Assembly: GCA_013327885.1 (NCBI GenBank)
Contig: JABUMY010000012.1
Location: 124,001 to 188,000, forward strand
DNA: 64,000 bases
Source of the DNA: Flavisolibacter longurius
Lineage (GTDB): Bacteria > Bacteroidota > Bacteroidia > Chitinophagales > Chitinophagaceae
Direction: 5' to 3'
Positions 7,258 to 42,487 of the stretch are shown in pieces. The notes under the pieces were generated by a model. It did not search any database. It was given only the letters and a program-made list of their open reading frames with translations, and was not told the DNA's origin. Numbering within the stretch: the first letter of the stretch is position 1; each line of letters opens with the position of its first letter. A program made the position numbers and the translations under genes.

Positions 7258-7319
7258 ACATTTGTTCTATTCATTTCAACACCTGAACGGGTGTTGCCGA
7301 ATGATTGGCGGTAGTTTTA
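7258..7319 (+). promoter_or_regulatory. HTCS-type operator and promoter A (for GH43)
   Basis: The operator starts at 7258 with ACATTTGTT and continues to TTTCAACA (spacer N10 after ACATTT). The -7 box TAGTTTTA begins at 7312, exactly 54 nt from the operator start, as in the four other copies at 9451, 26479, 32509 and 41715. The right half-site is degenerate (AACACCTGA). A short inverted repeat AACACC/GGTGTT follows it. The leader to the GH43 start is about 320 nt and contains the terminator at 7463. Confidence 0.75.
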
Positions 7320-7462
7320 TGTGGAAGAAAAGTTTGCCGAAACGGAAAGTTGAGCAACCGGCAGAAAACTATTCGTAAGGCCTGCGCGGCTTTCACGCAG
7401 CAGCCAGGCAACTAACATCACGAAATCACAACTGTTTCTCATATAGCAATCAATCACATGCC

Positions 7463-7491
7463 GTCCGCTGTTTTTACAGCGGACTTTTTTT
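7463..7491 (+). terminator. Strong intrinsic terminator
   Basis: A perfect 9-bp stem GTCCGCTGT / ACAGCGGAC with a TTTT loop is followed by seven T. It lies 240 nt beyond the dehydrogenase stop and could end the sugar-acid operon. It also lies about 145 nt downstream of promoter A, inside the presumed leader of the GH43 gene, so it may work as an attenuator there. Confidence 0.88.
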
Positions 7492-7638
7492 CAAAAAAGA
7501 TAGTGCACAAACAACTTGTACTGAGTTTGCGTTTTAAGCAATAATATCGCGATGGAGGTTGGTAGGTATAATGGGAATAATGGGAGATTGTTTGAACGGA
7601 TCCTCAACACATCAACAAAAACAAACAAGCAGTACCGG

Positions 7639-9234
7639 ATGGCTCAACAAACACGTATGAAAAATTTGCTTTTGCTTTTGGCATTCTTGTTCATTCATAG
7701 CTTTTTTGCTGAATTGCAGGCGCAGGAAAAAGGCGCACAGAATCCAATTCTTTTTGCCGATGTGCCGGACGTAGCCATCATTCGTGTTGGCGAAACCTAT
7801 TACATGAGCAGCACTACCATGCACATGAGCCCGGGCTTGCCCATTATGAAATCAAAAGACCTGGTGAACTGGGAACTGGTGCGTTATGCTTACGATACCC
7901 TTGCCAATGTAGATGAGCTGAACCTGGTGAACGGCAAAAGCAGCTATGGACGAGGTTCCTGGGCAAGCAGCTTCCGGTATCACAAAGGGACTTATTATGT
8001 TTCCACCTTTGCCCAAACTACGGGCAAGACCTATGTGTTTACCACGAAAAATATTGAAAAGGGTCCCTGGAAAATGGCTTCCTTCAGTCCTTCTTACCAT
8101 GATCATTCCCTGTTCTTTGATGATGACGGCCGGGTGTACCTGTTGTATGGCGGCGGCAAGTTAAAGCTGGTTGAACTAACAGCAGATGTTTCCGCCGTCA
8201 AGCCGGGTGTGCCCGAACAGGTTGTGATTGAAAATGCCAGCCTGCCCTCCGGTGATAACGGTGGCCTGCCGGCAGAAGGCTCACAGCTTTTTAAGGTTAA
8301 TGGCAAATATTACCTTTTCAATATCACCTGGCCAAAGGGCGGCATGCGCACTGTGGTCATTCACCGTGCCGATAAGATCACCGGTCCCTGGGAAGGAAGG
8401 GTAGCCCTGCAGGACCTGGGAGTGGCCCAGGGTGGGTTGATAGACACACCGGAAGGCAAGTGGTTTGCTTACCTGTTTCGCGACTACGGCGCAGTGGGTC
8501 GCATACCCTACCTGGTGCCGGTAAAATGGCAGGACGGCTGGCCCGTACTGGGCGAGAATGGCAAAGTGCCCCAAACCCTTGCGCTGCCACCCAGCAAAGG
8601 GCTCTTGGGCAAAATCGTCGCTTCCGATGAATTTACCCGCAAAAAGGGCGAGCCTTCGCTGCCGCTATTCTGGCAGTGGAATCACAATCCTGATAACCGC
8701 CTTTGGTCGGTAACGGCACGAAAAGGATTTTTACGTCTCACCACGGGCCGCATCGACACCAGCTTTTTGCTTGCTAGGAATACCCTCACACAGCGTACCA
8801 TCGGTCCGGAAAGCACGGGCTTTACCAAGCTGGATGTGTCAAACATGAAGGCCGGTGATTTTGCAGGGCTTAGCATCCTTCAAAAAAATTACGGGCTACT
8901 GGGTGTGAGGGCAGAAGAGGACAAAAAAGTTTTGGTGATGATCAATGCAACCGGCGGTATGCCTGTTGTTGCCGAAGAGATCCCGTTGCAGCAATCAACC
9001 GTTTATTTGAAAGTGGCCTGCGACTTTACCAACAAAAAAGATGTTGGCGATTTTTATTACAGCCTGGATGGGAAAACCTGGAAGCCGGTTGGGACAACCG
9101 TGAAGATGGCCTACACGCTTCCACATTTTATGGGTTACCGGTTTGGCCTGTTCAACTATGCTACCCAAAACACCGGCGGTTTTGTTGATTTTGATTTTTT
9201 CCGCATACAAAATGCAATTGATAAAAAACCGTAA
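7639..9234 (+). CDS. GH43 (subfamily 12-like) alpha-L-arabinofuranosidase/beta-xylosidase
   Basis: 531 aa with a signal peptide (LLLLLAFLFIHSFFAELQAQ). The five-bladed GH43 propeller carries the expected acids: D44 as base (FADVPDVAI), D155 as pKa modulator (HDHSLFFDD) and E213 as acid (LPAEGSQLF). The C-terminal 190 residues form a beta-sandwich of the kind found in subfamily 12-like enzymes. It would release arabinose or xylose from xylan side chains in the periplasm or at the cell surface. Starts at 7639 and 7657 are both possible; upstream in-frame codons to 7552 lack a signal sequence. The gene follows operator A and the leader terminator, and precedes GH51, GH3 and a second GH43. Confidence 0.88.
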   Translation: MAQQTRMKNLLLLLAFLFIHSFFAELQAQEKGAQNPILFADVPDVAIIRVGETYYMSSTTMHMSPGLPIMKSKDLVNWELVRYAYDTLANVDELNLVNGKSSYGRGSWASSFRYHKGTYYVSTFAQTTGKTYVFTTKNIEKGPWKMASFSPSYHDHSLFFDDDGRVYLLYGGGKLKLVELTADVSAVKPGVPEQVVIENASLPSGDNGGLPAEGSQLFKVNGKYYLFNITWPKGGMRTVVIHRADKITGPWEGRVALQDLGVAQGGLIDTPEGKWFAYLFRDYGAVGRIPYLVPVKWQDGWPVLGENGKVPQTLALPPSKGLLGKIVASDEFTRKKGEPSLPLFWQWNHNPDNRLWSVTARKGFLRLTTGRIDTSFLLARNTLTQRTIGPESTGFTKLDVSNMKAGDFAGLSILQKNYGLLGVRAEEDKKVLVMINATGGMPVVAEEIPLQQSTVYLKVACDFTNKKDVGDFYYSLDGKTWKPVGTTVKMAYTLPHFMGYRFGLFNYATQNTGGFVDFDFFRIQNAIDKKP

Positions 9235-9450
9235 GCTGTCGGTTCTGTTTTTAAAAAAATATATAGAAGAAGCGTGAGATATGAACGGTTGATTTTTTTC
9301 GGTACGCCGGTATAAACAACAATTATTTTACAAGTATGACAAGGTTTTTCAGTTGTTCCAATTCTCTACTACAAAGCAATGTTTCGTATTTACGTTAACT
9401 GGTTACAATCGATTCAACCGGTGCTATCCGAAGCTGAACGCAGGTTCTGA

Positions 9451-9512
9451 ACATTTGTTCTACTCGTTTCAACATTCGTATCTGCACTAACTTTTGTCGC
9501 CGTTTAGTTTTG
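9451..9512 (+). promoter_or_regulatory. HTCS-type operator and promoter B (for GH51)
   Basis: The operator starts at 9451 (ACATTTGTT, spacer, TTTCAACA). The -7 box TAGTTTTG is at 9505-9512, exactly 54 nt from the operator start. The leader to the GH51 ATG is about 130 nt. An inverted repeat GTCGCC/GGCGAC (9496-9517) spans the -7 box and may be fortuitous. Confidence 0.75.
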
Positions 9513-9644: not shown

Positions 9645-11183
9645 ATGAAGAAAACATTCGGATTGATCCTGATGGCAACGATGGCGTTGTCGGCACGCAG
9701 TCAAAACCTGGTTACCATCAACGCAGGCGAGGCAAAGGACACCATCAGCCGGCACATTTACGGGCATTTTGCCGAGCACCTGGGCCGCTGTATTTACGGT
9801 GGTTTTTACGTGGGGGAGAAGAACACAAAGATTCCCAACACCGCCGGTGTTCGCAACGACGTAGTGGCTGCGCTGAGAAAGCTAAAGATTCCCAACCTGC
9901 GCTGGCCGGGCGGCTGTTTTGCCGATACCTATCACTGGAAAGATGGCATTGGTCCCAAAGCCAAGCGTCCCAAAATTGTGAACGTTTGGTGGGGTGGTGT
10001 CACCGAGGATAACTCGTTTGGTACACACGATTTTTTGAATATGTGTGAGCTGCTGGGCACTGAGCCTTACCTCGCCGGCAATGTGGGCAGCGGTACGGTG
10101 CAGGAACTGGCTGATTGGGTGAACTATGTCAACTTCAGCGGCGAGAGCCCCATGTCAAACCTGCGCAAACAAAACGGCCGGGCAAAACCCTGGAATGTAA
10201 AATACTGGGGTGTGGGCAACGAAGCCTGGGGTTGCGGTGGCAACATGCGGCCCGAATATTACGCCGATATCTATCGCAAGTATGCCACGTTTATGGCCGA
10301 CTGGAACAATACCGGCGCACACTTTCGCATTGCCTCCGGCGCCAGCTCCAACGACTACAACTGGACCGAAGTGCTGATGAAAAATGTTCCGCGTTCGCTG
10401 CTGGAAGGCGTGGCACTGCACCATTACGCTGTTATCGACTGGAACAAAAAAGGGCCTTCCACTACGTTTAACGAGCAACATTATTTTACCACGATGGAAA
10501 GGGCGCTTGCCATGGATACCCTCATTGCCAACCACGCCGCCATCATGGACAAATACGACCCGGAGAAAAAAGTGGCCCTTATTGTAGATGAGTGGGGCGG
10601 TTGGTACGATGTGGAGCCCGGCACCAATCCCGGTTTTCTTTTCCAGCAGAACACCATGCGGGATGCCATGATCGCCGGCACCACGCTTAATATTTTTAAC
10701 AACCGCGCCGACAGGGTTCGCATGGCCAACCTGGCGCAAACCATCAACGTGCTGCAGGCTGTTATCTTAACGGAAGGCGAAAAGCTGTTGCTAACGCCAA
10801 CCTATCATGTAATGGAAATGTACAATGTTCACCAGGATGCCCTGCTGCTGCCCCTGGATGTAAAAAGCGACGACTACGAACTGGATGGAAAAAAACTGCC
10901 GGCCATTTCGGCATCGGCTTCAAGGGACAAGAGCGGCGCTGTTAATATTTCGCTGGTGAACATCGATGCCACTAAAGCAAAAGAGATTACGATTTCTTTG
11001 GGCGATGTTGCTGCTTCCGCGGTAAGCGGCCGCATATTGAAAGCTGCCACGCTGCAAACGCACAATACCTTTACACAGGCCAATACCATCAAGCCCGAAC
11101 CGTTCACCGGTGCGGCGCTTTCCGGCAAAACCCTGAAAGTAACGCTGCCACCGTTTTCAGTGGTGGTGCTGCAGGTGAAATAA
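9645..11183 (+). CDS. GH51 alpha-L-arabinofuranosidase, exported
   Basis: 512 aa, about the usual GH51 length. A signal peptide ends near ALSARSQ. The (beta/alpha)8 barrel contains the acid/base E193 (GVGNEAWG) and nucleophile E316 (IVDEWGGWY); the substrate-site markers LRWPGGCFADTYHW and GTHDF are also present, with a C-terminal beta-sandwich. The enzyme removes alpha-L-arabinofuranosyl groups from arabinoxylan or arabinan with retention of configuration. It has its own HTCS-type promoter (9451-9512). The next gene, GH3, follows after 245 nt without a terminator, so read-through is possible. Confidence 0.94.
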   Translation: MKKTFGLILMATMALSARSQNLVTINAGEAKDTISRHIYGHFAEHLGRCIYGGFYVGEKNTKIPNTAGVRNDVVAALRKLKIPNLRWPGGCFADTYHWKDGIGPKAKRPKIVNVWWGGVTEDNSFGTHDFLNMCELLGTEPYLAGNVGSGTVQELADWVNYVNFSGESPMSNLRKQNGRAKPWNVKYWGVGNEAWGCGGNMRPEYYADIYRKYATFMADWNNTGAHFRIASGASSNDYNWTEVLMKNVPRSLLEGVALHHYAVIDWNKKGPSTTFNEQHYFTTMERALAMDTLIANHAAIMDKYDPEKKVALIVDEWGGWYDVEPGTNPGFLFQQNTMRDAMIAGTTLNIFNNRADRVRMANLAQTINVLQAVILTEGEKLLLTPTYHVMEMYNVHQDALLLPLDVKSDDYELDGKKLPAISASASRDKSGAVNISLVNIDATKAKEITISLGDVAASAVSGRILKAATLQTHNTFTQANTIKPEPFTGAALSGKTLKVTLPPFSVVVLQVK

Positions 11184-11428: not shown

Positions 11429-14065
11429 ATGAACTGGATAAAAGATCGGCGAAAGAATTTTGTCATCTGCGTTCTGGCTGCTGTTGTTGCCACAACAAGC
11501 AGTGCCCAGGAAAATGGACGCTATCCTTTTCAAAACCCGGCGCTTTCTTTTGAGCAACGGGTGGATGACCTGGTGTCACGGCTTACGCTGGAAGAAAAAG
11601 TAGCGCAAATGCTGAACGCAGCACCCGCCATCTCCCGGTTAGGCATACCCGCATATGATTGGTGGAACGAAGTGCTGCACGGTGTGGCCCGTACGCCGTA
11701 CCGGGTAACGGTATATCCGCAGGCCATTGCCATGGCGGCCACCTTTGATACGGTTGCCCTTAACAAAATGGCGCAGTTTTCGGCTCTCGAAGGGCGGGCT
11801 GTTTTCAACAAAGCCAACCAGGACGGTCGCACCGGCCAACGTTATGTAGGTCTAACCTACTGGACACCCAACATTAACATCTTCCGCGACCCCCGGTGGG
11901 GAAGAGGCCAGGAAACCTATGGCGAAGATCCTTATCTAACCGGCATGCTGGGTTCAGCCTTCGTCAGGGGCCTGCAGGGCGATCATCCAAAATACTTAAA
12001 CGCGGCAGCCTGTGCCAAACACTACGCCGTGCACAGCGGTCCCGAACCGTTGCGCCATGTTTTTAATGTGTCACCCAGCAAGCACGACCTCTGGAATACC
12101 TACCTGCCGGCGTTTAAGCAATTGGTGACAACTACAAATGTTGCCGGTGTAATGTGCGCTTACAATGCTTACCAGGGACAGCCCTGCTGCGGCAGCGATG
12201 AATTGATGGTGGACATCCTGCGCAACCAGTGGAAATTTACCGGTTATGTTACCTCGGACTGTTGGGCAATAGACGATTTTTTTAAGAACCACAAAACCCA
12301 TCCCGATGCGGCCAGCGCTTCGGCCGATGCCGTGCTGCATGGCACCGACATCGACTGTGGCACCGATGCTTACAAATCGCTGGTGCAGGCGGTGAAAGAA
12401 GGCAAGATCACCGAAGCGCAGATCGATGTTTCGGTAAAGCGGTTATTTACCATTCGCTTCCGTTTGGGTATGTTCGATCCGCCATCGATGGTGCCGTTTG
12501 CGCAAACACCCGCATCGGTACTGGAAAGCCCCGAGCACAAAGCGCATTCGCTGCAAATGGCCCGTCAATCGATCGTGCTGCTGAAAAATGCAGCGGCGAC
12601 ATTACCCCTGAAAAAGAGCATTAAGAAGATAGCCGTGCTGGGACCCAATGCCGATAACCAGATCTCTGTTCTGGGAAACTACAACGGCATTCCGTCAAAC
12701 ATTGTTACCGCCTTGCAGGGCATCCGGAACAAACTTCCCGGTGCCGAGGTGGTGTACGAAAAAGCGGTCAACTTTACCAACGATACCTTGTTGCAATACA
12801 CCGATATCAGCATCCAGCTTTCGTGGCAGGGACAGCCCGGTTTTGGTGCGGAATATTTCAACAACCGCGACCTCAAAGGAGAACCGATTCTGCGTCGTAA
12901 CGAAAAAGCGATTGACAACAATTGGCAGGAGGGACAGATCGTGGTGGACACATTAAAGGCTTATGATTTCTCCGTTCGGTACTCAACTGATTTTACGGCT
13001 ACGGCCAACGGCACCACAACATTTGAATTGGATGCCGATGACGGCTACCGATTTTTTGTTGACGGAAAAGAAGTGGTAAATGCCTGGCTGCGCAACCGTT
13101 GGGGTGCCCGAAGCTATCGTTTGCCAACAGTGGCAGGAAAAACCTACCGGCTGGTACTGGAGTACTACCAGGGTGAGGGAAAAGCATCGGTGCATTTGCG
13201 TACTGGAAACCTGGTAAAGAGTGATTTTGCCGCTCTTGCCAGTAAATTAAAAGATGTTGATGCGATCGTTTACGTGGGTGGTATTTCGCCACAATTGGAA
13301 GGGGAAGAAATGCAGGTCAATTATCCCGGCTTTGACGGCGGCGACCGCACTTCCATTTTATTGCCTGCTGTGCAAACAAACCTGATGAAGGCCCTGAAAG
13401 CAACAGGCAAGCCGCTTGTGTTTGTGATGATGACCGGCAGTGCCATTGCCACCCCTTGGGAATCAGAAAATGTTCCCGCTATCGTTAACGCCTGGTATGG
13501 TGGACAGGACGCCGGGACGGCCCTTGCCGATGTGCTGTTTGGTGATTACAATCCCTCGGGACGGCTTCCGCTTACATTTTACAGGAGCGACAGCGACCTG
13601 CCGGACTTTGGCGATTATTCGATGCAAAACCGCACCTACCGTTATTTCAAAGGAAAACCGCTTTACCGTTTTGGACATGGCCTGAGCTATACCACTTATC
13701 GTTACAGTAAGCTGGTAGTGCCGTCAACGGCAAAAAAAGGTGAGAGTGTGTCCCTAGCCGTTACAGTATCCAATGCCGGCACCAAAGATGGTGATGAGGT
13801 GGTGCAGTTGTATGTTTCCGGTAAGGCCGCAACCAGCGCTGTTCCGCTTCGGTCCCTGCGCGGTTTTCAGAGGGTCAATCTCAAGGCAGGTGAAACAAAA
13901 ACGGTCCGGTTTACCCTAAGCCCCGAAGACCTTTCGCTTGTGGATGATGAAGGCAAACTAAAACCGTATTCCGGGCCGGTAATTGTCTCCGTTGGCGGCA
14001 GTCAGCCCGATGCCACGAGCATTCGCAACAAAACAACAATTCAGGCAAATCTTACGCTTAAATAA
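11429..14065 (+). CDS. GH3 beta-xylosidase/beta-glucosidase with PA14 insertion, exported
   Basis: 878 aa. A signal peptide ends near TTSSAQ. The GH3 barrel carries nucleophile D277 (VTSDCWAIDDFF). An (alpha/beta)6 domain follows and is interrupted by a PA14-like carbohydrate-binding insertion (about residues 470-600, GFGAEYFNNRDLKG to SVHLRTG). A fibronectin type III-like domain is at the C-terminus. This layout is typical of exo-acting beta-xylosidases and beta-glucosidases of Bacteroidota; xylan is favoured by the neighbours. The stop overlaps the next start by one base (TAATG at 14063-14067), so translation of the two is probably coupled. No operator copy was found in the 245-nt upstream gap. 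Confidence 0.92.
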   Translation: MNWIKDRRKNFVICVLAAVVATTSSAQENGRYPFQNPALSFEQRVDDLVSRLTLEEKVAQMLNAAPAISRLGIPAYDWWNEVLHGVARTPYRVTVYPQAIAMAATFDTVALNKMAQFSALEGRAVFNKANQDGRTGQRYVGLTYWTPNINIFRDPRWGRGQETYGEDPYLTGMLGSAFVRGLQGDHPKYLNAAACAKHYAVHSGPEPLRHVFNVSPSKHDLWNTYLPAFKQLVTTTNVAGVMCAYNAYQGQPCCGSDELMVDILRNQWKFTGYVTSDCWAIDDFFKNHKTHPDAASASADAVLHGTDIDCGTDAYKSLVQAVKEGKITEAQIDVSVKRLFTIRFRLGMFDPPSMVPFAQTPASVLESPEHKAHSLQMARQSIVLLKNAAATLPLKKSIKKIAVLGPNADNQISVLGNYNGIPSNIVTALQGIRNKLPGAEVVYEKAVNFTNDTLLQYTDISIQLSWQGQPGFGAEYFNNRDLKGEPILRRNEKAIDNNWQEGQIVVDTLKAYDFSVRYSTDFTATANGTTTFELDADDGYRFFVDGKEVVNAWLRNRWGARSYRLPTVAGKTYRLVLEYYQGEGKASVHLRTGNLVKSDFAALASKLKDVDAIVYVGGISPQLEGEEMQVNYPGFDGGDRTSILLPAVQTNLMKALKATGKPLVFVMMTGSAIATPWESENVPAIVNAWYGGQDAGTALADVLFGDYNPSGRLPLTFYRSDSDLPDFGDYSMQNRTYRYFKGKPLYRFGHGLSYTTYRYSKLVVPSTAKKGESVSLAVTVSNAGTKDGDEVVQLYVSGKAATSAVPLRSLRGFQRVNLKAGETKTVRFTLSPEDLSLVDDEGKLKPYSGPVIVSVGGSQPDATSIRNKTTIQANLTLK

Positions 14066-15783
14066 TGATGATGAAAAGATTTATCGTTTTCGCTTTTTTC
14101 GCTTTTGGAATCCTTCGTGCCAGTGCACAAAATGAAGGCATGTATACCAACCCGGTTTTGACAGGTTTTTATCCCGATCCCAGTATCTGCAGGGCCGGTG
14201 ATGATTATTACATCGTCAACTCTTCGTTTGCGTATTTCCCCGGTCTGCCTATTTTTCACAGTAAGGATTTGGTCAGTTGGCGGCAGATCGGTCATGCGCT
14301 GGACAGGCCCGAACAGTTGCCCCTCATCGGTGCCGGTGTTTCCCGCGGCCTTTTTGCACCGGCCATTTCGTATTACAAAGGCACCTTTTATATTGTGTGC
14401 ACGCTGATAGACCGCGGTGGCAATTTTGTGATCACGGCCACCGACCCAGCAGGTCCCTGGAGCAACCCGGTTTACCTGAAAGAAGTAAACGGCATCGATC
14501 CTTCGCTGTTCTTTGATGAGACCACCGACAAAGCTTACATTGTTTACAACAGCGAGCCGCCGGGAAACAAAACACTTTGGAACGGCCACCGCACCATCCG
14601 CCAGTACGAATTTGACTACCGCAATAAAAAAGTGGTGGGAGAAGAAAGGCTGCTGATAAATGGAGGCGTGGATACATCCAAACATCCCGTGTGGATTGAA
14701 GCACCGCATATCTATCATATCAACGACTGGTATTACCTGATGTGCGCCGAAGGCGGTACGGGTTACAATCACTCCGAAGTGATCTTCCGCAGCAAGTCGC
14801 CAGAAGGGCCTTTTATTCCCTGGGAGAAAAATCCTATTCTAACGCAACGCCACCTTGACCGTGGCCGGAAAAACCCGGTAACCACGGCGGGCCATGCCGA
14901 CCTGGTACAAACGAAAAACGGCGACTGGTACGCGGTGTACCTGGCTTGCCGCCCTTACGAAGGCGATCATTACAACATTGGCAGGGAAACCTTTTTAAAC
15001 CCGGTAACCTGGACCGAAGACGGCTGGCCGGTGATTTTGAAAGGCGACGAACAGGTGAAGTTTCAGTACCCTTTGCCACTCCCGAATGTGAACAAAAATC
15101 CTGTCAATCCCTTTAGCGGCAATTTTACGTTCCATGATGATTTCAACAACGAAAAATTAAATGTTCGTTATACGTTTTTGCGCACCGTAACCGAAAACTG
15201 GTACAATACGACATCGAACAAAGGCTGGCTCACCTTGCAACTGCGGCCCCAATCAGTAAGCGGAAGAGACAATCCTTCGTTTGTTGGTTTCCGGCAGCAA
15301 CACCACCAGGCAACGGCCACTACGCGGTTGCGGTTTACCCCGGGTGCCGACAATGAAAAAGCAGGACTGGTGATTTTTCAAAGCGAATCGTTCTTTTATT
15401 ACCTCTGCAAATCGCTGGAAGGCGGCAAACCTGTGGTGCAGCTTTACAAATCAACAAAAGATTCGATGGAACTCCTCGCTTCCAAACCCTTGCTTTCAAA
15501 AACAGGAGATGTTTACCTGCGCATCGAACCAAAGAACGCCGTGTATGCAACGTCCTTTTCTACCAATGGTAAAAACTGGACGCCATTGCAGGAAGTGGAT
15601 GGGAAATTCCTGAGTACGGCAATGGCCGGTGGATTTGTTGGCAGCGTGTTTGGCTTGTATGCGACCTCGCTTGGCAAACAAAGCCAAAACAAAGCATCCT
15701 ACGATTGGTTTACGTACAAAGGAAACGACGAGGTGTTTAAGCTGGCAGCGGATCCTGCCAAAGGCCAGGCGAAAAAGAACTAA
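14065..15783 (+). CDS. GH43 beta-xylosidase/arabinofuranosidase, exported
   Basis: 572 aa with a signal peptide (FVIFAFFAFGIL type, ending ASAQ). The propeller acids are D38 (GFYPDPSI), D145 (NGIDPSLFFDE) and E212 (WIEAPHIY). The second half is the beta-sandwich found in subfamilies 1 and 10-12 beta-xylosidases. It is translationally coupled to the GH3 gene by a one-base stop/start overlap, so the two probably act together on xylooligosaccharides. Hydrolysis of beta-1,4-xylose or terminal arabinose is the likely reaction. A terminator follows at 15836. Compared with the GH43 at 7639, the motifs belong to a different subfamily, so it is not a recent duplicate. Confidence 0.92.
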   Translation: MMMKRFIVFAFFAFGILRASAQNEGMYTNPVLTGFYPDPSICRAGDDYYIVNSSFAYFPGLPIFHSKDLVSWRQIGHALDRPEQLPLIGAGVSRGLFAPAISYYKGTFYIVCTLIDRGGNFVITATDPAGPWSNPVYLKEVNGIDPSLFFDETTDKAYIVYNSEPPGNKTLWNGHRTIRQYEFDYRNKKVVGEERLLINGGVDTSKHPVWIEAPHIYHINDWYYLMCAEGGTGYNHSEVIFRSKSPEGPFIPWEKNPILTQRHLDRGRKNPVTTAGHADLVQTKNGDWYAVYLACRPYEGDHYNIGRETFLNPVTWTEDGWPVILKGDEQVKFQYPLPLPNVNKNPVNPFSGNFTFHDDFNNEKLNVRYTFLRTVTENWYNTTSNKGWLTLQLRPQSVSGRDNPSFVGFRQQHHQATATTRLRFTPGADNEKAGLVIFQSESFFYYLCKSLEGGKPVVQLYKSTKDSMELLASKPLLSKTGDVYLRIEPKNAVYATSFSTNGKNWTPLQEVDGKFLSTAMAGGFVGSVFGLYATSLGKQSQNKASYDWFTYKGNDEVFKLAADPAKGQAKKN

Positions 15784-26478: not shown

Positions 26479-26540
26479 ACATTTGTTGCCTTCATTTCAA
26501 CAAATGAACCGCTCAGAAAAAGGCCTTTCTTCTAGATTTA
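26479..26540 (+). promoter_or_regulatory. HTCS-type operator and promoter C (for the first esterase operon)
   Basis: The operator starts at 26479: ACATTTGTT, spacer, then TTTCAACAAATGA, a nearly perfect inverted repeat. The -7 box TAGATTTA begins at 26533, exactly 54 nt from the operator start. The leader to the esterase ATG at 26674 is about 130 nt, similar to copy B. Confidence 0.78.
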
Positions 26541-26661: not shown

Positions 26662-27804
<1,143 letters not shown>

Positions 27805-27857
27805 GATTTGTTTTCTTCTGCAAGTATTGGCATTTTTTGCTGTTTTATTTTTTTACA

Positions 27858-28748: not shown

Positions 28749-28804
28749 GCAGCCTCCCTGCGACTGCTTTTTACGACAGCTTTTTTGACCTTAAAAATCT
28801 TCGT

Positions 28805-29929
28805 ATGAAAAATAAGTTCAACCGTTGTTTGCTATTGACGATTTTGTTTTGCGCAACTATTTTTGCCAACAGTCAGCCACCCCGCATTCCGTCGTTTCTA
28901 TCGCCGCAGGTCAATCCCGATAACACAGTTGTTTTCCGTCTGTATGCACCTACTGCAAAAGAGGTTAAGCTAACTAGCCAGTTTGAAAAAGGGCTGCAGT
29001 CCTTAACAAAAGACTCTGCCGGCGTGTGGAGCATCACACGGGGACCGGTGAGTCCCGATATCTACCCCTACAATTTTGTGGTGGATGGCACTTCGGTTGC
29101 CGACCCACGCAATGCAAACCTTTTTCCGAACGAAGGATTTCAAAGCAGCCTGTTAGAAGTCACCGGCAGCACCCCGCTTGTGCATACGCTGCAAAAAGTG
29201 CCACACGGCACAGTCTCGTACCGGTATTATACTTCGCCGGAACTGGGGGAGCGGCCGGTGGTGATCTACACCCCACCGGGATATGAAAAAGAATCCAACA
29301 AAACCTACCCGGTTCTTTACCTGCTGCACGGTACCACTGATACGGAGGAAACCTGGACCAAGGTGGGGCGTGCCCACCTTATTTTAGACAACCTTATTTC
29401 ACAGGGCAAGGCGGTTCCCATGATCGTTGTGATGCCTTACGGTAGGGCCTATCCTACGATCAGCAAGTCATCGGGCAGCCTTCGCAACTGGGACAACCTG
29501 CAGGAGATCAAAAAAGATTTTCTCTCTCACCTATTTCCTTTTGTGGAGCAACAGTACCGGGTGAAAAAAGAAGCCAACAGCAGGGCCATTGCCGGCTTTT
29601 CCGGCGGTGGCGGCACCTCGCTTTTTCTCGGGCTGAACAATCCTGACCTGTTTAAATGGGTGGTGGGTTTTGCACCCGGCATGCTGAAAGAAGAATTTGA
29701 CCGCAATAACGCGGTTGCCTTTGCTGACCCCAAACTGACTAACCAACGGCTCAGCCTTTTTTGGATCGGTGTAGGAAAAGAAGACATGCTGTACCCTGTC
29801 ATCTCCGATTATTTGGCCGTGCTGGATGCCAAAGGCATCAAACACGAAACATTTATTTCTGAAGGCGGGCATACATGGATGAACTGTAAACTTTATCTTT
29901 CAACGGTAGCACAAAAGCTTTTCCGCTAA
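28805..29929 (+). CDS. CE1-type esterase with N-terminal E-set domain, exported
   Basis: 374 aa. The signal peptide ends near IFANSQ. The E-set domain (VFRLYAPTAKEVKLT, YPYNFVVDG) precedes the esterase with [22 protein letters not shown], nucleophile S266 (AGFSGGG) and H356 (GGHTWM). The nucleophile loop GFSGGG replaces the commoner GLSMGG. Closest relatives in the window are the products at 32743 and 33915; all three share SPDIYPY/EPDIYPY, VPHGT and TDTEETW, so tandem duplication is likely. It would cleave acetyl or feruloyl esters on arabinoxylan. ATG 28805 starts the signal peptide. Confidence 0.88.
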   Translation: MKNKFNRCLLLTILFCATIFANSQPPRIPSFLSPQVNPDNTVVFRLYAPTAKEVKLTSQFEKGLQSLTKDSAGVWSITRGPVSPDIYPYNFVVDGTSVADPRNANLFPNEGFQSSLLEVTGSTPLVHTLQKVPHGTVSYRYYTSPELGERPVVIYTPPGYEKESNKTYPVLYLLHGTTDTEETWTKVGRAHLILDNLISQGKAVPMIVVMPYGRAYPTISKSSGSLRNWDNLQEIKKDFLSHLFPFVEQQYRVKKEANSRAIAGFSGGGGTSLFLGLNNPDLFKWVVGFAPGMLKEEFDRNNAVAFADPKLTNQRLSLFWIGVGKEDMLYPVISDYLAVLDAKGIKHETFISEGGHTWMNCKLYLSTVAQKLFR

Positions 29930-29962
29930 GGAAAGGTTCTTTCGTTCCGTTAAACAGTAACC

Positions 29963-32419
29963 ATGCAGAAAACCCTTTTTTTTCTCCTCCTGGTCACAGG
30001 CAATGTCTTTTCCCAGGGGCAACCCGGCCTGAAACTTTGGTACAACAAACCCTCCGGCAACACCTGGGAAAACGCCCTGCCCATCGGCAACGGCCGGCTG
30101 GGTGCCATGGTTTATGGTAACGTAGAGCAGGAGGTCATTCAGCTCAATGAACATACGGTTTGGAGCGGCAGCCCGCACCGCAACGACAACCCGCTTTCGC
30201 TTGATTCGCTTTCCCACATCCGGAACTTGATCTTCAATGGTCGCCAGAAAGAAGCCGAACGTGTGGCCAACAGGGCCATCATCAGCAAAACATCGCATGG
30301 ACAAAAATTTGAGCCGGTAGGCAGCCTGCTGCTTTCATTTGACGGGCATGATTCGTTTACGGACTACCGGCGGGAACTGGACCTTCAAAAAGCCGTTACC
30401 AAAACATCTTATACGGCCAACGGAGTAAGCTTTACCCGGGAGGCTTTTGCTTCTTTGCCAGACAGGGTAGTGGTGGTGCGGTTAACGGCCAGTCGGCCAG
30501 GAAGCATTTCATTTGCTACATCGATGACAACACCGCAGAAAAAGGCGGCGATCAAAACTGCAGGCACCAATGAATTGGCAATCACCGGCACTACCTCCGA
30601 CCACGAAGGCGTAAAAGGTTTGGTGAATTTTAAAGGCATTATCCGGATAAAACCAGAAGGCGGCACGCTAAGAAAAACCGACACGTCGGTAATTCTTCAA
30701 AATGCAAACGCCGCAACAATTTATATTTCCATTGCCACCAATTTTAACCGCTACAACGACCTGGGCGGCGATGCGGCAAAACGGGCGGCGGACTATTTGG
30801 CACTTGCCTTTTCCAAGTCCTATGCATCGCTGCTGGCGGCGCACATTGCCGCTTACCAAACTTTTTTTAACCGCGTTTCCCTGGACCTGGGCACAACGGT
30901 TGCGGCCGACCTGCCAACGGACGAAAGGTTGCGCCATTTCAGAACGGCCAATGATCCGCACCTGGCGGCCTTGTATTTTCAGTTTGGCCGCTACCTGCTG
31001 ATCTCTTCTTCACAACCGGGCGGACAACCGGCCAACCTGCAGGGCATCTGGAACCACCGGATCAACCCGCCCTGGGACAGCAAGTACACCATCAACATCA
31101 ATGCGCAGATGAATTATTGGCCGGCGGAAAAAACAGCCCTGCCCGAAATGCACCAGCCGTTTTTGGGCCTGGTAAAAGAACTGGCGCAAACAGGTAGGGA
31201 AACGGCAAAAACCATGTATGGCGCCCGGGGTTGGGCAGCCCACCACAACACCGACATCTGGCGGACAACGGGTGCCGTGGACGGCGCTACCTGGGGAATT
31301 TGGAGTGCTGCCGGCGGGTGGCTGAGCCAGCACCTTTGGGAGCATTACCTGTACAACGGCAACAAAGAATTCCTGGCCACTGTGTACCCTGTTTTAAAAG
31401 AAGCGGCTACGTTTTACGTGGATTTTTTGGTCCCGCATCCGACAAAAAACTGGCTGGTGATCAACCCTGACATGTCGCCGGAAAATGCACCCAAGGCCCA
31501 CCAGGGTTCTTCGCTGGATGCGGGCACCACCATGACCAACCAGATCGTTTTTGATATTTTCAGCACTACCATCCGGGCGGCGGAAATCCTGCAAAAGGAC
31601 AGTCGTTTTATAGATACATTAAAAAGCTTGCGGCAGCGGCTTCCACCCATGCAGATCGGGCAGCACGGGCAATTGCAGGAGTGGTTGGACGATATTGACG
31701 ATCCCGAAGACAAGCATCGCCATATTTCACACCTGTACGGGCTTTATCCTTCCAACCAGGTTTCGCCGCTTCACACACCGCAACTGGCGGCAGCGGCCAA
31801 AACCACTTTGCTGCACCGCGGCGATGTTTCCACCGGCTGGAGCATGGGCTGGAAAGTAGGGTGGTGGGCAAGGCTGCTTGATGGCAACCATGCCTATAAG
31901 CTGATACAGGATCAACTGACGCCTGTGGGCACCAACGAAGGCGGCGGCGGCACTTACAACAACCTGTTTGATGCACATCCGCCCTTCCAGATCGATGGCA
32001 ATTTTGGCTGTACGTCTGGCATAACGGAAATGCTGCTGCAAAGTGCTAACGGTGAGGTACACCTGTTACCGGCCCTGCCCGATGTTTGGCCCGATGGAAA
32101 GGTTGCCGGCATTCGTGCGGTAGGTGGTTTTTCCGTCGTGAGCATGGAGTGGAAAGAAGGTAGAATAAAAAAACTGGTGATGCGATCGAATCTGGGCGGC
32201 GACCTGCGCTTGCGCAGTCCCAACGCTTTAAAAGCCCTTTCGGGTAAGAAGCTGGAAGTAGCCAGTGGAGCCAACGGCAATTTATTTTACAAAGTAGAAA
32301 AAACACCCGACGCGGTGATTTCCGACAAGACAACGATACATTCGTTACCGGTAAATGCATCTTTTGTGTATGATCTGCCCACAAAAACCAACGAGGTGAT
32401 TACGTTGGTTGATGAATAA
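29963..32419 (+). CDS. GH95 alpha-L-fucosidase/alpha-L-galactosidase, exported
   Basis: 818 aa, the usual length for GH95. A signal peptide ([13 protein letters not shown]) is followed by the N-terminal sandwich ([29 protein letters not shown]). In the (alpha/alpha)6 barrel the expected active-site segments are [21 protein letters not shown] and FQIDGNFG. The family hydrolyses terminal alpha-1,2-L-fucose with inversion; some members in xylan-degrading Bacteroides prefer alpha-L-galactose on complex glucuronoarabinoxylan. Placement in an esterase operon suggests the galactose variant or xyloglucan/hemicellulose side chains; sequence alone does not decide. It is the last gene of operon C. Confidence 0.91.
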
Positions 32420-32508: not shown

Positions 32509-32570
32509 ACATTTCTGCAGGGATTTTCAACAAATAGCGCATCCGGCTTTTGACAGTAGAAATAGTTTAG
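32509..32570 (+). promoter_or_regulatory. HTCS-type operator and promoter E (for the second esterase operon)
   Basis: The operator starts at 32509: ACATTT, ten bases, then TTTCAACAAAT. The inner part of the left half-site differs from the other four copies, but both outer elements are intact. The -7 box TAGTTTAG begins at 32563, exactly 54 nt from the operator start. The leader to the ATG at 32743 is about 165 nt. The rest of the 323-nt gap shows nothing further. Confidence 0.72.
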
Positions 32571-32742
32571 CGGGGAAGTAATGGGCGGGATGTAAGTGGA
32601 CTGAATCAGGTTCTGTGTCGATAATAAACTTTTAAAAAGGTCGGCGTCTTTTCCGACAATGCAGGAGAAAAGATGGTAATGGAGGTGATTGGATTTCTAA
32701 CCAACAACATTGAATTTTTCTTTTTCAGAAAATAAAAAACAG

Positions 32743-36960
<4,218 letters not shown>

Positions 36961-37044: not shown

Positions 37045-40000
37045 TCAGGCAACCGGGTTGGACCGGTTGCTTGCTTTTTTACCTTCTTCATTTCGTTTTT
37101 TGGTGATATAATCCGAAGGCAGCATACCGTATTTCGCCTTGAATGATTTGGCAAAATAGTTGGGCGTGGAAAAGCCAACCGAGTAGGCGATCTGCGCAAT
37201 GTTCATGTCGCTTTTCTCCAGCATGACGGCCGCTTTTTCCAGCTTAACCGAACGGATATATTCCACCGGTGTTTGTCCGGTCAATTCCAATAGTTTGCTG
37301 TACAGCGAGCTTCGGCTCATGCATACATGGCGGCTTAATTCCTCCACCGACAACTGCGAGTTGGTTAGGTTTTCTTCGAGGTATTGCGCAATGGTTTGCA
37401 ACAGCTTTTCGTTTGCCGATAAAAACGAAACCTCCGGCGCCAATACTTTGATCTGCCGGCTGTAGGTAGTTTTTAATTGGTTATTGAGCTGCAGCAGGTT
37501 CCTGATCTTTACATTCAGCACTTCTACATGAAAGGGTTTTGTCACGTAATCGCTGGCGCCGGACTCTAAGCCTTTTAACTGGTTTTCTTCGCCGGTGAGC
37601 GCTGTTAACAAGATCAGTGGTATGTGCGCCGTGCGTTTGTCTGCTCTCAGTTTCCGGCTTAATTCTATACCATCCATCACCGGCATATTAATATCACTCA
37701 CCACCAGTTGCGGGTGGTTGGCCAGTGCCTTTTGCCAACCTTCTTTGCCGTTGGCCGCTTCCAGTACCCGGTAGTGGCGCTGCAGGTTGTCTTTTAAGTA
37801 ATACCTGAAATCATCATTGTCTTCCACGATCAGTACCAGTGGCTTTTCGTCACCTGCAGCCGCAACGATTCCTTCCGCGGTTTGTGCCGCCTCAATTTCC
37901 GGTTCTGCATCCACGTTAGATGGAAGTTCTGGTTCGGCTTTTTCAGTGACCGGCTCTTTGATCGCCACCAGTGGCAAATGCAGATGAAATGTAGTGCCAA
38001 CATTAGGTTGACTGTCAACTGTTATGGTACCGCCGTGCAGTTGTACAAATTCTCGGGTAATGGAAAGGCCAATGCCCGTGCCCTGGTTTAAAATGGAAGC
38101 AGGTGTATCGGTTTGGTAAAAATGCTCAAAGATTTTTTCTTTTTTATCCGCCGGGATACCAATGCCGGTATCCGACACTTTTAAATGAATTGCAGGTGGT
38201 AAGCCCCCTTCTGCATGGCAAACCTTGTCCATCTCCAGTGCAATGCGACCACCGGGCATCGTAAACTTAAAGGCATTGGAAAGAAGGTTGAACAAAATGC
38301 GTTCGATCTTGTCGTGATCAAAATGGGTGTAGTAGGAGGGCAGGCTGGTGGTAAATGAAAATTCGATCTGCTTGCGTTCCGCCATGTCTTTAAATGAATC
38401 GCAAACATCGTTTACAAACGAAACCAGTTCACCCTTGGTGGCCTGCAGGTTCAGCTCGTGTTCTTCCAGCTTGCGGAAATCCAGCAATTGGTTCACGAGG
38501 TTAAGCAGGCGCTTGCCATTGCGTTTGATCATTTGTAGGTGGCCTGCCGTTTGTTCTGTCTTTGCCTCCTGTAACAGAGTGTCAACCGGTCCCAGTATCA
38601 GCGATATCGGCGTACGGAACTCGTGGCTTAAATTGGTAAGAAACTTTATCTTCTGTAGGTCCAGCTCATGGATCCTGGCCGCTTCTTTGCGTGCTTGTTC
38701 CACCCGCATTTTTTCCTGTTCCAGCGCAAATGTCCGTTTCAGTTTGGCGATGCCTTTCTGCCGGATAAATAAGAGCAAACTTGCTGCCGTCAGCAGGTAT
38801 AACAGGTAAGCATAGGTGGTTCTCCAGAAAGGAGGATGAACCCGTATCCGGATGGAGGCACCTTCTTCGTTCCAAACGCCATCGTTGTTGCTGGCTTTTA
38901 CACGAAAAACATAAACACCGGGATCGAGGTTGGTGTAAAATGCAGTGGTGGTATTGCCTACATAATTCCAGGTTTTGTCAAAACCTTCCAGCTTGTAAGC
39001 GTATTGGTTTTGTTCGGGGGCCGTATAGCTAAGCCCTACAAACTTCAACGCAAAATTTTGCTTGTAATCGAGGTTGATCTCCTTTGCCAGGGAAATGTGT
39101 TCTCCGATAGGACCGTCTTCCGACGGCGCCACCGATTGGTTGGATATCACCAGGTCGGTGAACAGGATCTCCGGCACCGTGTTGTTTTTGGTAAACGAAG
39201 ACGGCCGGAAATAATTAAAGCCTTCCAGTCCACCGAAAAAGATATCGCCATCGGAGAGGAGCAGCCCTGATCCGTGCATAAAATTGCTTCGCTGCACGCC
39301 GTTGGGATAATTGTAGTTGGAGATCTTTTGCGTACCCGGTGCAATGCTGCTGATACCTGTGTTCAGGCTGATCCATTTCCGGCCCGTAGGGTCTTCAACA
39401 ATTTTACGCACTGTGTTGTTCTGCAAGCCGTCCTTTTCCGAAAGTACCGTAAACTGTCCGGTCTTTCGCTGGAAGATGGCAATGCCGCCACCGTGGGTGC
39501 CAGCCCAGATGTTGCCATCCCGGTCTTCGAGCAGGGTTTGAATTTTATCGTTCGGAAGCTTGCTGTTTAGCGTGTGGTAAATGGTAAAGCGGCCGGTTTC
39601 TACCTGCAGGCAGGCAATGCCGCCGCCGTGGGTGGCTATCCAGATGGCGCCTTCCTTGTCTTCCAGAATATCACGGATATAACCGTTCAGCGGCAGCAGG
39701 CTGTCGTTTGCAGCTACGGGCCTTGGTGTATACCGTACGGTTACTTCACCGGCGGCATTCAGCACATTGATGCCTTCGCCATTGGTGCCCACCCAGAGAT
39801 TGCCGGCCCGGTCTTCTTTCATGCAAAAAATATCATTTGCATTCAAGTCACCTTTGTCGGTGCCCTTTAACAATTGCCGGTAGCTTTTGGTGATGGGGTC
39901 AACCAGGAACAAACCATCGGCATAGGTTCCCACGGCAAGCCGTTTGTGCTGGCTCATTACCAGCGATAACACCGATAATTTTATTTCAGCGTCCTTTCGT

Positions 40001-41223
40001 TTTGATTTGAGCGGTATGGTTTGGAACAGCTTTGTCTGTCGGTCGAAGAGGCTTAATCCACCTTCCGTACCGACAAATACTTTTCCTTTTTCGCCTTCGG
40101 CAAATGCCGTTACGATGGGGTGGTTGAGTCCCTGGCGGTCAAAAGCGTTGCTTTGCACATATTCAAACAGGTTCAGGTTCCTGTCGTATTTGTTGACACC
40201 GCCGCGAAAAGAGCCCAGCCAGTAGGTGCCCTGGGGATCGATGTAAACATTCCGCACGGCGAAGGCGGACAAGCCAAACTTTTCCCGGCCGCCATCGGCG
40301 TACTGGCTGATGGCACCGGTGTGGCGGTTGCGGATGAGCAGGCCATTACCAGTTCCCATACACAGTTCGTCTTTGTCAAAAGCGATACTATAGATATAAT
40401 CCACGCTTCGCATATTGGGAACACTGCTGTTGTGCTGGCGATAGGTAGTAAAGGTGTTGGTGCCCCGTTTTATGCGGCTCAGGCCATTGTCGGTACCGAT
40501 CCAGATGGCGCCGTCGCTGTCTTCTGCAATGGTGTTGACCATGTAGCTTCCCAGGCTAAGGGAATCGCCAGGTTGATGGAAGTAGGCCGTTGTTTTTTTT
40601 GCCCGCACATCATGTTGCCACAGCCCATCGCTGGTGCCGATCCAGATGCGGTTTTTGCTGTCTTCAAAGATCGTCATGCCGGAAACCACCGGCGCATTCC
40701 GTCGGCTTGGTGGTTGCAGCGGAAAGGGCGTCACGGTGCCGTTGGAAGGTTTCAGGATGTCAACGCCTGCATAATGTACGATCCAGACGTTTCCGTTCAC
40801 ATCACTGCAGATGCCACGGATCACGTTGTTGACAATTTTATTTTTGCCGGTACCGGCGGGGAAAGTGGTGAACAGGTCCTTGCGACGATCGTAGCGGGCA
40901 ATGGAGCCCCCACTGGTGCCGACCCAAAGATTGCCCGACCGGTCTTCGTGCAGGGAAAGCACCTCGTTGGTAGGCAGGCTGGCCGCATCACCGGGTTTGT
41001 TTCGATAGACCGTGATGGTATTGCCGTCAAACTTGTTCAAGCCATCATCGGTGCCAAACCAAACCAGCCCATAGCTGTCTTTGATAATTACGTTCACCGT
41101 GTTGGAAGAAAGTCCCTCCTTGGTGGTAACAGCCGTGAACTTTAAGCGATCGGGCTGGCCAAAAGCTGTTGACGCCAACACCACGCAGGAGCAAAGCAGC
41201 AGGAATATTCTTTTCACAATCAT
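37045..41223 (-). CDS. Hybrid two-component system sensor-regulator (HTCS)
   Basis: 1392 aa. A signal peptide (MIVKRIFLLLCSCVVLASTAFG) starts a periplasmic part of two beta-propellers built from Reg_prop repeats (GLVWFGTDDGLNKFD type, about residues 25-690), then a Y_Y_Y domain (about 695-780). One membrane helix (YLLYLLTAASLLLFI) leads to the kinase: phosphoacceptor H867 (SHEFRTP), ATP sites NAFKF, DTGIGIP and GTGIGLS. A receiver domain with D1177 (VVSDINMPVMDG) and K in TKPF follows, then an AraC-type helix-turn-helix pair. HTCS proteins sense a specific oligosaccharide and activate the local locus. It is divergent from SusC and is the best candidate for the five ACATTT-N10-TTTCAACA operators. 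Confidence 0.95.
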   Translation of the reverse strand: MIVKRIFLLLCSCVVLASTAFGQPDRLKFTAVTTKEGLSSNTVNVIIKDSYGLVWFGTDDGLNKFDGNTITVYRNKPGDAASLPTNEVLSLHEDRSGNLWVGTSGGSIARYDRRKDLFTTFPAGTGKNKIVNNVIRGICSDVNGNVWIVHYAGVDILKPSNGTVTPFPLQPPSRRNAPVVSGMTIFEDSKNRIWIGTSDGLWQHDVRAKKTTAYFHQPGDSLSLGSYMVNTIAEDSDGAIWIGTDNGLSRIKRGTNTFTTYRQHNSSVPNMRSVDYIYSIAFDKDELCMGTGNGLLIRNRHTGAISQYADGGREKFGLSAFAVRNVYIDPQGTYWLGSFRGGVNKYDRNLNLFEYVQSNAFDRQGLNHPIVTAFAEGEKGKVFVGTEGGLSLFDRQTKLFQTIPLKSKRKDAEIKLSVLSLVMSQHKRLAVGTYADGLFLVDPITKSYRQLLKGTDKGDLNANDIFCMKEDRAGNLWVGTNGEGINVLNAAGEVTVRYTPRPVAANDSLLPLNGYIRDILEDKEGAIWIATHGGGIACLQVETGRFTIYHTLNSKLPNDKIQTLLEDRDGNIWAGTHGGGIAIFQRKTGQFTVLSEKDGLQNNTVRKIVEDPTGRKWISLNTGISSIAPGTQKISNYNYPNGVQRSNFMHGSGLLLSDGDIFFGGLEGFNYFRPSSFTKNNTVPEILFTDLVISNQSVAPSEDGPIGEHISLAKEINLDYKQNFALKFVGLSYTAPEQNQYAYKLEGFDKTWNYVGNTTTAFYTNLDPGVYVFRVKASNNDGVWNEEGASIRIRVHPPFWRTTYAYLLYLLTAASLLLFIRQKGIAKLKRTFALEQEKMRVEQARKEAARIHELDLQKIKFLTNLSHEFRTPISLILGPVDTLLQEAKTEQTAGHLQMIKRNGKRLLNLVNQLLDFRKLEEHELNLQATKGELVSFVNDVCDSFKDMAERKQIEFSFTTSLPSYYTHFDHDKIERILFNLLSNAFKFTMPGGRIALEMDKVCHAEGGLPPAIHLKVSDTGIGIPADKKEKIFEHFYQTDTPASILNQGTGIGLSITREFVQLHGGTITVDSQPNVGTTFHLHLPLVAIKEPVTEKAEPELPSNVDAEPEIEAAQTAEGIVAAAGDEKPLVLIVEDNDDFRYYLKDNLQRHYRVLEAANGKEGWQKALANHPQLVVSDINMPVMDGIELSRKLRADKRTAHIPLILLTALTGEENQLKGLESGASDYVTKPFHVEVLNVKIRNLLQLNNQLKTTYSRQIKVLAPEVSFLSANEKLLQTIAQYLEENLTNSQLSVEELSRHVCMSRSSLYSKLLELTGQTPVEYIRSVKLEKAAVMLEKSDMNIAQIAYSVGFSTPNYFAKSFKAKYGMLPSDYITKKRNEEGKKASNRSNPVA

Positions 41224-42487
41224 TAGCGTATGATAGCAAGTTATTGATTATTATGTATATCGGCTGCTGTCTTTCCAAATACCTGCAGCAGGGCAGGGCG
41301 CAGCATCAGGAGACGAAACCCTGGGCGTGAACTCAATTTTTATACAAGGCTTGTTTCTTTTCATATAGCAGGCGTACAGCGTCGGGAAAGATTTGTACGC
41401 GTTTCCGGTCATTCTGTTTCGCTTCCTGGCAAGGCTCGTCGCAACAGCAATGATAGATTTTCAGCCGCATAAAAACAAACAGGCCTTACCGGCTGCGTGT
41501 TGAAAAAAGTGGAAAACTGGTTTTGTACCGCAGTAATAAAATAGAGTAAAATGGATTTTCGATCCTGCTATTTTACAATCAAAGCAAACAAAATACCCAT
41601 CTTTTTAGAAAGTCTGCACCTTAATTATCCCTTGCTGAGAAACAGATTTTTCGGCTGTTTTTGCATAAGATGTTTTTGTAATCGGTAGATTATCAATGGG
41701 GTTGCGTACAGTAAACATTTGTTCTATCTGTTTCAACAAATGTACCAACGTGTTTTCAAGGCGGTTGGTAGATTTGGTTTATTGAGCAGTCGGCCTGTCT
41801 AACGGGTTTGTGCAAGTGAAAAAAGATGCCATGACAGCGACAGGGAGGACAGAAAAAAGCAGGTCCAGTGGTAGATCCATTCATCTCACGTTGAAGACTG
41901 GCGAAAGAAAGTGGATGCCAAAGATTGGCTGAATTCCGAACAATCGTTTACATCGTGTCTGGAAAAGGGAAAATGTGGATAAGTAGAAATTTTTTATGTA
42001 ATCGATTGCGTAATTCAAAATTTTGGTAAATTAGTAGGAACAATTGCTTTTTTCTCCTGTAAACTGTCTGACTCAAAAACGATAAAACGATGATCTGCAA
42101 GTGCGGGTCAATCTTATTTGTAGCCTCTTTTTTACCCGTACTGATGAAATAAAAACCGAACCTTTTCGACCCTGAATTAGAACAAAGGCGATTTGTGGCT
42201 GTATGCTCTGTAGGAGTCGCAGCCAATCATCGATAAAAACGAGTGTTAAACATCAATTATGAGAGAACGTAAAGTGGTTTGAAACGGCACTGTACCGCTC
42301 TTCCGCTTTACACCTTTAAATCGACTTGCTATGCTTGCAATGAATAACCTTGCGCAACGAAGCCATGCCTTGCTGTTTCCTTCCTGTCTTTTTGGTTTAC
42401 CCAACTGATCACCACCCGGAAATAGCCGCATGCAATTTTCTCCTGTTCTCAAATCAACTGTATCAACTTTAAAAATTTATCCTGCTT
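41224..42487. other. 1.26-kb intergenic region between HTCS and SusC
   Basis: No gene is supported here. The region holds operator/promoter D (41715-41776) and then about 710 nt of presumed SusC leader. A hairpin with a 9-bp stem (GTAAAGTGG 42269-42277, CCGCTTTAC 42303-42311, one G-U pair) with a small inner CGG/CCG stem lies in the leader. Short minus-strand frames at 41948-42226 and 42246-42452 look non-coding. A promoter for the HTCS gene itself was not identified. Confidence 0.6.
41715..41776 (+). promoter_or_regulatory. HTCS-type operator and promoter D (for SusC/SusD), best copy
   Basis: The operator is a perfect 9+9 inverted repeat, ACATTTGTT (41715-41723) and AACAAATGT (41735-41743), spacer 11 nt ending in TTTC. 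The -7 box TAGATTTG begins at 41769, exactly 54 nt from the operator start, and fits the Bacteroidetes consensus TAnnTTTG fully. The right half-site falls at about -33, where a bound activator would contact RNA polymerase. Confidence 0.82.

Follow-up and report, generated by a model that had tools for sequence, protein, structure and literature searches.

A candidate operator at a fixed 54 nt from the −7 box in a putative hybrid two-component regulon of Flavisolibacter longurius

Which regulator, and which DNA element, might bring the glycan-degradation genes of one locus in Flavisolibacter longurius (Chitinophagaceae; assembly GCA_013327885.1, contig JABUMY010000012.1) under common control? 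The window analysed here (64,000 nt, positions 124,001 to 188,000 of the contig's forward strand) carries genes for glycoside hydrolases (GH), esterases and a SusC/SusD pair, along with one for a hybrid two-component system (HTCS) protein. An earlier reading of this stretch (hereafter, the original prediction) proposed that five copies of one operator, ACATTT-N10-TTTCAACA, each at the same distance from a −7 box, constitute the regulon of that HTCS. We consider it highly likely that these five sites, together with a sixth one elsewhere in the genome (on contig C5), are operators of a single HTCS regulon, through which transcription would be activated by a tandem dimer at an esterase-rich polysaccharide utilization locus (PUL) of arabinoxylan type.

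The operator, its spacing and the HTCS gene

In the genome (5,747,514 bases) the operator motif occurs at 14 places when one mismatch is tolerated, and the five exact matches are the window copies alone (named hereafter by their first positions: 7258, 9451, 26479, 32509 and 41715), all on the plus strand and precisely where the original prediction had located them (Table 1). The distance from the start of the operator to the first base of the −7-like box is 54 nt in every copy, as had been claimed, while the accompanying box form, TAG(A/T)TTT, holds for four of them and gives way to TAGTTTA at 32563. A matrix comprising operator, 54-nt spacing and box, built from 42 sites that all stem from other genomes, scored the five copies between 32 and 50 bits; they were the sole matches in the window at or above 8 bits, and the top score among 20 mononucleotide-shuffled windows was 10.8 bits.

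The genome-wide work consisted of pattern searches, in which a composite of operator, 54 nt and −7 box (19 fixed bases, up to three mismatches) was found at 14 places in this genome (four with none, two with one and eight with three mismatches) and, when read backwards as a control, at five. The sixth site (one mismatch; L095:9400-9339 on the minus strand, that is, C5:172399-172339 of genome G000) again has the box TAGTTTTG at 54 nt, and precedes genes for an alpha/beta-hydrolase and a GH9-like protein that are unlinked to the PUL. In keeping with the original prediction, the scan with the 54-nt rule thus recovers the five sites and one more before carbohydrate-type genes; beyond these six, the eight three-mismatch places are close to the level of the reversed control. 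The same 19-base pattern with three mismatches was rejected as too loose for use across 58 relatives, as it matched at least 53 of them, with the reversed control about equal in many.

The protein encoded at 37045-41223 unites a sensor, HisKA and HATPase domains, a receiver and an AraC-type helix-turn-helix in a single chain, adjoins susC/susD and glycan enzymes, and has relatives in the PDB (4a2l, 3v9f, 12aw). Among eight Y_Y_Y matches in the genome, two fall in frames longer than 1300 aa, both of them HTCSs, a count that covers HTCSs possessing this domain. Orthologs (E up to 1e-280, a threshold of our own choosing, with two candidates scored per genome) were found in 40 of 294 genomes of the family, its own included. 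In the same 294 genomes we searched for a longer operator pattern followed by 54 nt and the −7 box, a pattern that by construction fixes the spacing. With up to two mismatches, all 32 sites lay in genomes with an ortholog, so that 24 of these 40 genomes (13 genera) had a site vs none of the 254 without an ortholog (Fisher p = 6e-25). With up to three, 67 places were recorded in 40 genomes (three places for the reversed control), spread over 29/40 genomes with and 11/254 without the ortholog; 56 of the 67 lay in ortholog genomes, 45 no more than 50 kb from the ortholog gene and 22 no more than 600 bp from it, and the 11 places in genomes lacking an ortholog all had three mismatches. Because of this co-occurrence we reason that the operator is very probably bound by the HTCS encoded among these genes, which the original prediction had named as its natural binder.

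Another binder could be envisaged within the same span, namely a one-component AraC-family regulator (cupin plus AraC helix-turn-helix, 24200-25090), the only other AraC-type gene among 39 distinct window frames scanned. AraC-type proteins can bind direct repeats, this one is encoded inside the locus, and the operator (up to two mismatches) is present in 18 of the 27 genomes that have both genes. Its relatives (E up to 1e-50, in 44 of the 294 genomes) nevertheless fail the test that the HTCS passes: at the same threshold the operator was absent from all 17 genomes with the AraC gene only and from the 237 with neither, yet present in 6 of the 13 with the HTCS only, and on these counts we rejected the AraC-type protein as the binder. 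At up to three mismatches the corresponding fractions were 19/27 (both), 10/13 (HTCS only), 3/17 (AraC only) and 8/237 (neither). The AraC gene moreover sits among sugar-acid genes (permease, FGGY kinase, enolase-type, RraA-type) without an operator, unlike the HTCS gene with its 22 of 67 sites within 600 bp, and we regard control by this protein as very improbable.

Several observations weigh against assigning the operator to the HTCS. Since related species do not furnish independent sites, the p-values for co-occurrence, as well as those for single columns given below, are too small. Even at three mismatches the longer pattern recovers four of the six sites of the genome itself (9451 and 32509 are missed), and ortholog genomes without a site number 16/40 at up to two mismatches and 11/40 at up to three. 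When five ortholog loci from these 11 siteless genomes were rescanned, L262 and L264 had the repeat with an imperfect box and L256 had neither; among nine further loci, no site was found in L266, L120, L113 and L128 within 1.5 kb on each side. Control of the unlinked C5 site by the window HTCS would, for its part, follow from sequence alone.

The same rescan revealed, in L258 and in L269, a good site followed by its box at 54 nt, and three genomes (G324, G031, G006) have sites elsewhere, outside the rescanned loci. Operators with a box at 54 nt were also present in closer relatives outside the 294-genome sample (G005, G006, G009). A scan of named genomes retained 80 loci, most of them matching the kinase and receiver part only, and an operator with up to one mismatch was found in a single one, a distant metagenome-assembled genome (L015; HTCS 49% identical), in which it stands 54 nt from its box and before a GH115-GH10 pair.

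The spacing was also assessed without selecting for it, by scanning for the operator alone in the window and in 732 kb of partly overlapping ortholog-gene loci, with identical sites removed. At up to three mismatches 34 sites were recovered (at least two of them being the reverse of a near-palindromic site), and TAnnTTT stood at 54 in 25 of the 34, against eight boxes over all 53 other offsets together, two of which were at offset 55. Relaxing the threshold to five mismatches gave a box at 54 in 32 of 72 sites and elsewhere in 12 (the background was 0.0015 per position).

Further features were observed around the ortholog genes. In L118 two operator-like sites stand back to back beside the HTCS ortholog (5769 on the minus and 5814 on the plus strand), with 54-nt boxes in both directions, and the one reading towards the HTCS gene makes autoregulation possible in that species. 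Elsewhere a second operator-like stretch lies 41 bp upstream of the operator (L176 1123/1164, L250 1141/1100, L167 11545/11586, G147:C11 707390/707349), and these 41-bp pairs, from four genomes (G025, G218, G006, G147), may reflect arrays of operator units. The receiver of the window HTCS reads AHIP at residues 1199-1202; across 36 ortholog loci, this one included, the motif reads SHIP or CHIP in 17, begins with a different residue in 18 and was not found in one (the first residue being S, C, N, G, A, M, R or T). An (S/C)HIP motif is described for the receivers of most HTCSs and is linked to the inhibition of DNA binding (PMC11253607), without being a strict requirement.

Form of the repeat and promoter geometry

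The original prediction described the 41715 copy as a perfect inverted repeat, and its letters do read ACATTTGTT-N11-AACAAATGT. If the operator were a true inverted repeat, it would be bound by a symmetric dimer. The copies in the window do not by themselves decide between this and a direct repeat: the inverted reading is the better match at 41715 (9/9 identities, vs 8/13 for the direct one), as well as at 26479 and at C5 (8/9 inverted identities in each).

Comparison across species speaks for a direct repeat of 21 bp, ACATTTGTKCYAT-N8-ACAAATGWRCYAT. Columns 28-33, left free in the longer pattern, were read in the 45 places near an HTCS ortholog and gave W-R-C-Y-A-T. C30 (26/45, p = 7e-5), A32 (30/45, p = 5e-11) and T33 (28/45, p = 3e-7) agree with the direct repeat, for which T28 (13/45) and column 29 (G or T, 26/45) were not significant. 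The mirror symmetry expected of an inverted repeat is kept at T17 and at column 20 (A or C), in 38 of 45 places each, and it fails at A16 (2/45) and G19 (3/45). The right unit of both L262 and L264 reads ACATTTGTGCCAT, with ACATTTG where the inverted form would have ACAAATG (direct-repeat identity 10/13, inverted 5/9). As published Bacteroides HTCS motifs are likewise direct repeats, averaging 21 bp (PMC3878776), the inverted form, for all its fit to the letters at 41715, appears unlikely.

In the promoter description of PMC7366714, TAnnTTTG is centred at −7 and a second element lies at −33. Counted back from the T of the TAnnTTT box, the window sites have their downstream unit beginning at 33 nt and their upstream unit at 54 nt; with the start of transcription estimated from the −7 consensus, the two units would span approximately −44 to −32 and −65 to −53, respectively. 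The placement of the right half-site at 'about −33' in the original prediction was therefore loose, while the predicted activator-like position by the −33 region is supported.

From the sites, their spacing, the repeat structure across species and the co-occurrence with the HTCS, all read from sequence, we infer binding, dimer geometry, activation and ligand as follows. A periplasmic oligosaccharide would be sensed by the HTCS, whose own receiver domain would then be phosphorylated; the AraC-type domains would bind as a tandem dimer to the two 13-bp units, 21 bp (two helical turns) apart and on one face of the DNA; and the downstream monomer, predicted to lie over or next to the −33 region because its unit starts 33 nt before the T of the box, would bring RNA polymerase to promoters that lack a −33 box. 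A similar disposition is known from Escherichia coli, in which AraC occupies tandem half-sites (araI1-araI2) spaced by 21 bp, of which the downstream half-site adjoins or overlaps the −35/−33 element, and at araBAD makes up for a missing contact there, as the tandem dimer would here. The likeness concerns the tandem units and the predicted position of the downstream one; the sensor, the ligand signalling and the sigma factor differ.

The same sites could instead serve as repressor operators, with the HTCS blocking transcription until glycan is present, and the HTCS of an esterase-rich arabinoxylan locus is indeed depicted in PMC7815789 as bound and blocking transcription. Here, however, a constant gap of about 20 nt separates the end of the operator from the −7 box downstream, and the operator extends into the −33 region, as would suit an activator; an exact 54-nt spacing would not be needed for repression. 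We hold repression to be improbable and retain activation by the HTCS.

Target genes and the surrounding locus

The targets named in the original prediction (GH43, GH51, two esterase operons and SusC/SusD) were borne out by both Pfam and NCBIfam matches (Table 1), and in the operon behind copy 3 one match, to the esterase half of NF041944, remained under the cut-off of that model. The GH3 gene and the second GH43 gene had no operator in front of them in the matrix scan of the window (8 bits or more), which fits their transcription by read-through. Between 26674 and 36960 there are six esterase-type genes, and PULs with more than two are termed esterase-enriched (PMC7815789); judging by its enzymes, the locus would be an esterase-rich PUL of arabinoxylan type.

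Table 1. Predicted regulator, targets, operator copies and −7-like boxes in the window
Feature	Positions	Strand	Basis
HTCS, 1392 aa: Reg_prop propeller, Y_Y_Y, HisKA, HATPase_c, receiver, AraC-type helix-turn-helix; proposed binder	37045-41223	−	
GH43 with GH43_C2; predicted target of copy 1	7552-9234	+	Pfam/NCBIfam
GH51-type alpha-L-arabinofuranosidase; predicted target of copy 2	9645-11183	+	Pfam/NCBIfam
GH3; no own operator found	11429-14065	+	domain search; matrix scan
Second GH43; no own operator found	14065-15783	+	domain search; matrix scan
Operon: feruloyl-esterase-like, BD-FAE, CBM48-esterase, GH95; predicted target of copy 3	26674-32419	+	Pfam/NCBIfam
Operon: three esterase-domain proteins; predicted target of copy 4	32710-36960	+	Pfam/NCBIfam
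susC (42488-45643) and susD (45680-47173); predicted target of copy 5	42488-47173	+	Pfam/NCBIfam
Operator copy 1; units 7258-7270 and 7279-7291 (13 bp each, 21 bp apart)	7258-7291	+	motif scan; matrix 40.8 bits
−7-like box TAGTTTTA, 54 nt from start of copy 1	7312-7319	+	
Operator copy 2	9451-9484	+	motif scan; matrix 33.7 bits
−7-like box TAGTTTTG of copy 2	9505-9512	+	
Operator copy 3	26479-26512	+	motif scan; matrix 46.0 bits
−7-like box TAGATTTA of copy 3	26533-26540	+	
Operator copy 4, weakest of the five	32509-32542	+	motif scan; matrix 32.2 bits
−7-like box TAGTTTAG of copy 4; one departure from TAG(A/T)TTT	32563-32570	+	
Operator copy 5, between the divergent HTCS and susC genes	41715-41748	+	motif scan; matrix 49.5 bits
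−7-like box TAGATTTG of copy 5	41769-41776	+	

The susC promoter box lies 719 nt ahead of the susC start codon, compared with 140-240 nt at the other four targets. An Rfam scan of the window, the susC leader (41769-42488) included, gave no match, and a repeat search of this leader returned one short pair only. The leader also contains a LacI-like palindrome (TGTAATCGATTGCG, 41997-42010), by count no more than expected by chance, and a LacI-family gene is situated at 58814-59827. Adjoining the PUL, the stretch 47339-58078 encodes an FG-GAP/ASPIC protein followed by PSCyt1/PSD1/DUF1501 genes (domain names that refer to planctomycetes), and the matrix scan found no operator of the ACATTT-N10-TTTCAACA type in this block.

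Bacteroides promoters and known systems

Does the same geometry extend to Bacteroides? From the genome of B. cellulosilyticus (L064) we took 40 regions around HTCS-sized genes (a subset of such genes; 793,500 bases), with 809 TAnnTTTG boxes once six with N, duplicates and low-complexity ones had been removed, and assessed upstream self-similarity in 1,755 cells, each pairing one lag with one register. The six top cells at 9 of 12 identities were all at lag 21 (registers 53-58). Lag 21 also held the two top cells (registers 61-62) in 20 control regions from this genome, and in Bacteroides sp. GM023 the top cells fell at other lags or registers.

Follow-up counts, made for boxes with 160 nt upstream at registers 50-58, gave lag-21 matches at 17/805 boxes in the B. 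cellulosilyticus HTCS regions (vs a mean of 3.0 for other lags), at 6/393 in its control regions (vs 1.8; the controls are not clean), at 5/383 in GM023 (vs 2.3; not significant alone, p = 0.09) and, all regions pooled, at 28/1581 (vs 7.2). The lag-21 count peaked in the register window 54-62 (31, vs 7-21 in other non-overlapping windows). Downstream frames were scanned for 20 of the 28 matches (12/17 from HTCS regions, 4/6 from controls, 4/5 from GM023), while for the others a downstream frame was absent or lay 147-594 nt off. The frames from the HTCS and GM023 regions encode four SusC-type receptors, GH43, GH28, a pectinesterase, GH95, GH127, NAGLU, an esterase, a Sde182-like protein, a laminin-G protein and an HTCS, and those from the control regions GH97, GH31, GH3 and a catalase; two of the scanned frames had no family match. 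A search for TTGTCCAT pairs gave three promoters with a TTTGTCCA-type unit at exactly 54 (2/18 in the B. cellulosilyticus HTCS regions, 0/7 in its controls and 1/12 in GM023).

As the control regions carry the signal too, the data suggest a lag-21 feature that need not be specific to HTCSs; they also hint at a wider promoter rule, in which such repeats would precede −7 boxes at one common register. Its most general form, a 21-bp direct repeat of any sequence with the upstream unit some 54 nt before TAnnTTTG at Bacteroidota glycan loci, which would allow the promoters of PULs, and the regulators acting on them, to be read from the DNA without expression measurements, seems to us evenly balanced between holding and failing. 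If the distance were general, a search ahead of −7 boxes for units repeated directly at 21 bp, in one set register, would yield testable regulons from uncharacterised PULs, and the point of contact between activator and RNA polymerase would be fixed.

HTCS binding to DNA has been followed by gel shift for BT4124 and BT4663 (PMC11253607) and for BT0366 (PMC5061871). An operator-to-promoter distance for HTCSs was not found stated in the literature searched, which left out most subscription journals, and a figure legend in PMC5061871 refers to a supplementary figure in which predicted HTCS sites are marked along with −7 boxes and which may already display the spacing for some promoters. Here one operator, a likely regulator, six targets and an exact promoter distance can be named from the DNA, in a form that can be checked in many genera.

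The proposed regulon resembles those of Bacteroides HTCSs as described in PMC3878776 in its Reg_prop/Y_Y_Y sensor, kinase, receiver and AraC-type helix-turn-helix, in the 21-bp direct repeat and in its susCD and glycan-enzyme targets; it differs in what appears to be another operator and in belonging to a family outside Bacteroides. Relative to that description, the operator is here tied to the −7 box by exactly 54 nt, both in 13 genera (24 genomes, with the spacing-fixed pattern at up to two mismatches) and in the spacing-free scan. With the esterase-enriched arabinoxylan PUL of B. intestinalis and B. cellulosilyticus (PMC7815789) the locus shares an HTCS, susCD, GH43s and several feruloyl/acetyl esterases, and it differs in also having GH51, GH3 and GH95. 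The DNA sequence recognised by the HTCS of that PUL is given as 'yet to be determined' in PMC7815789, and a candidate operator can now be proposed for a comparable locus.

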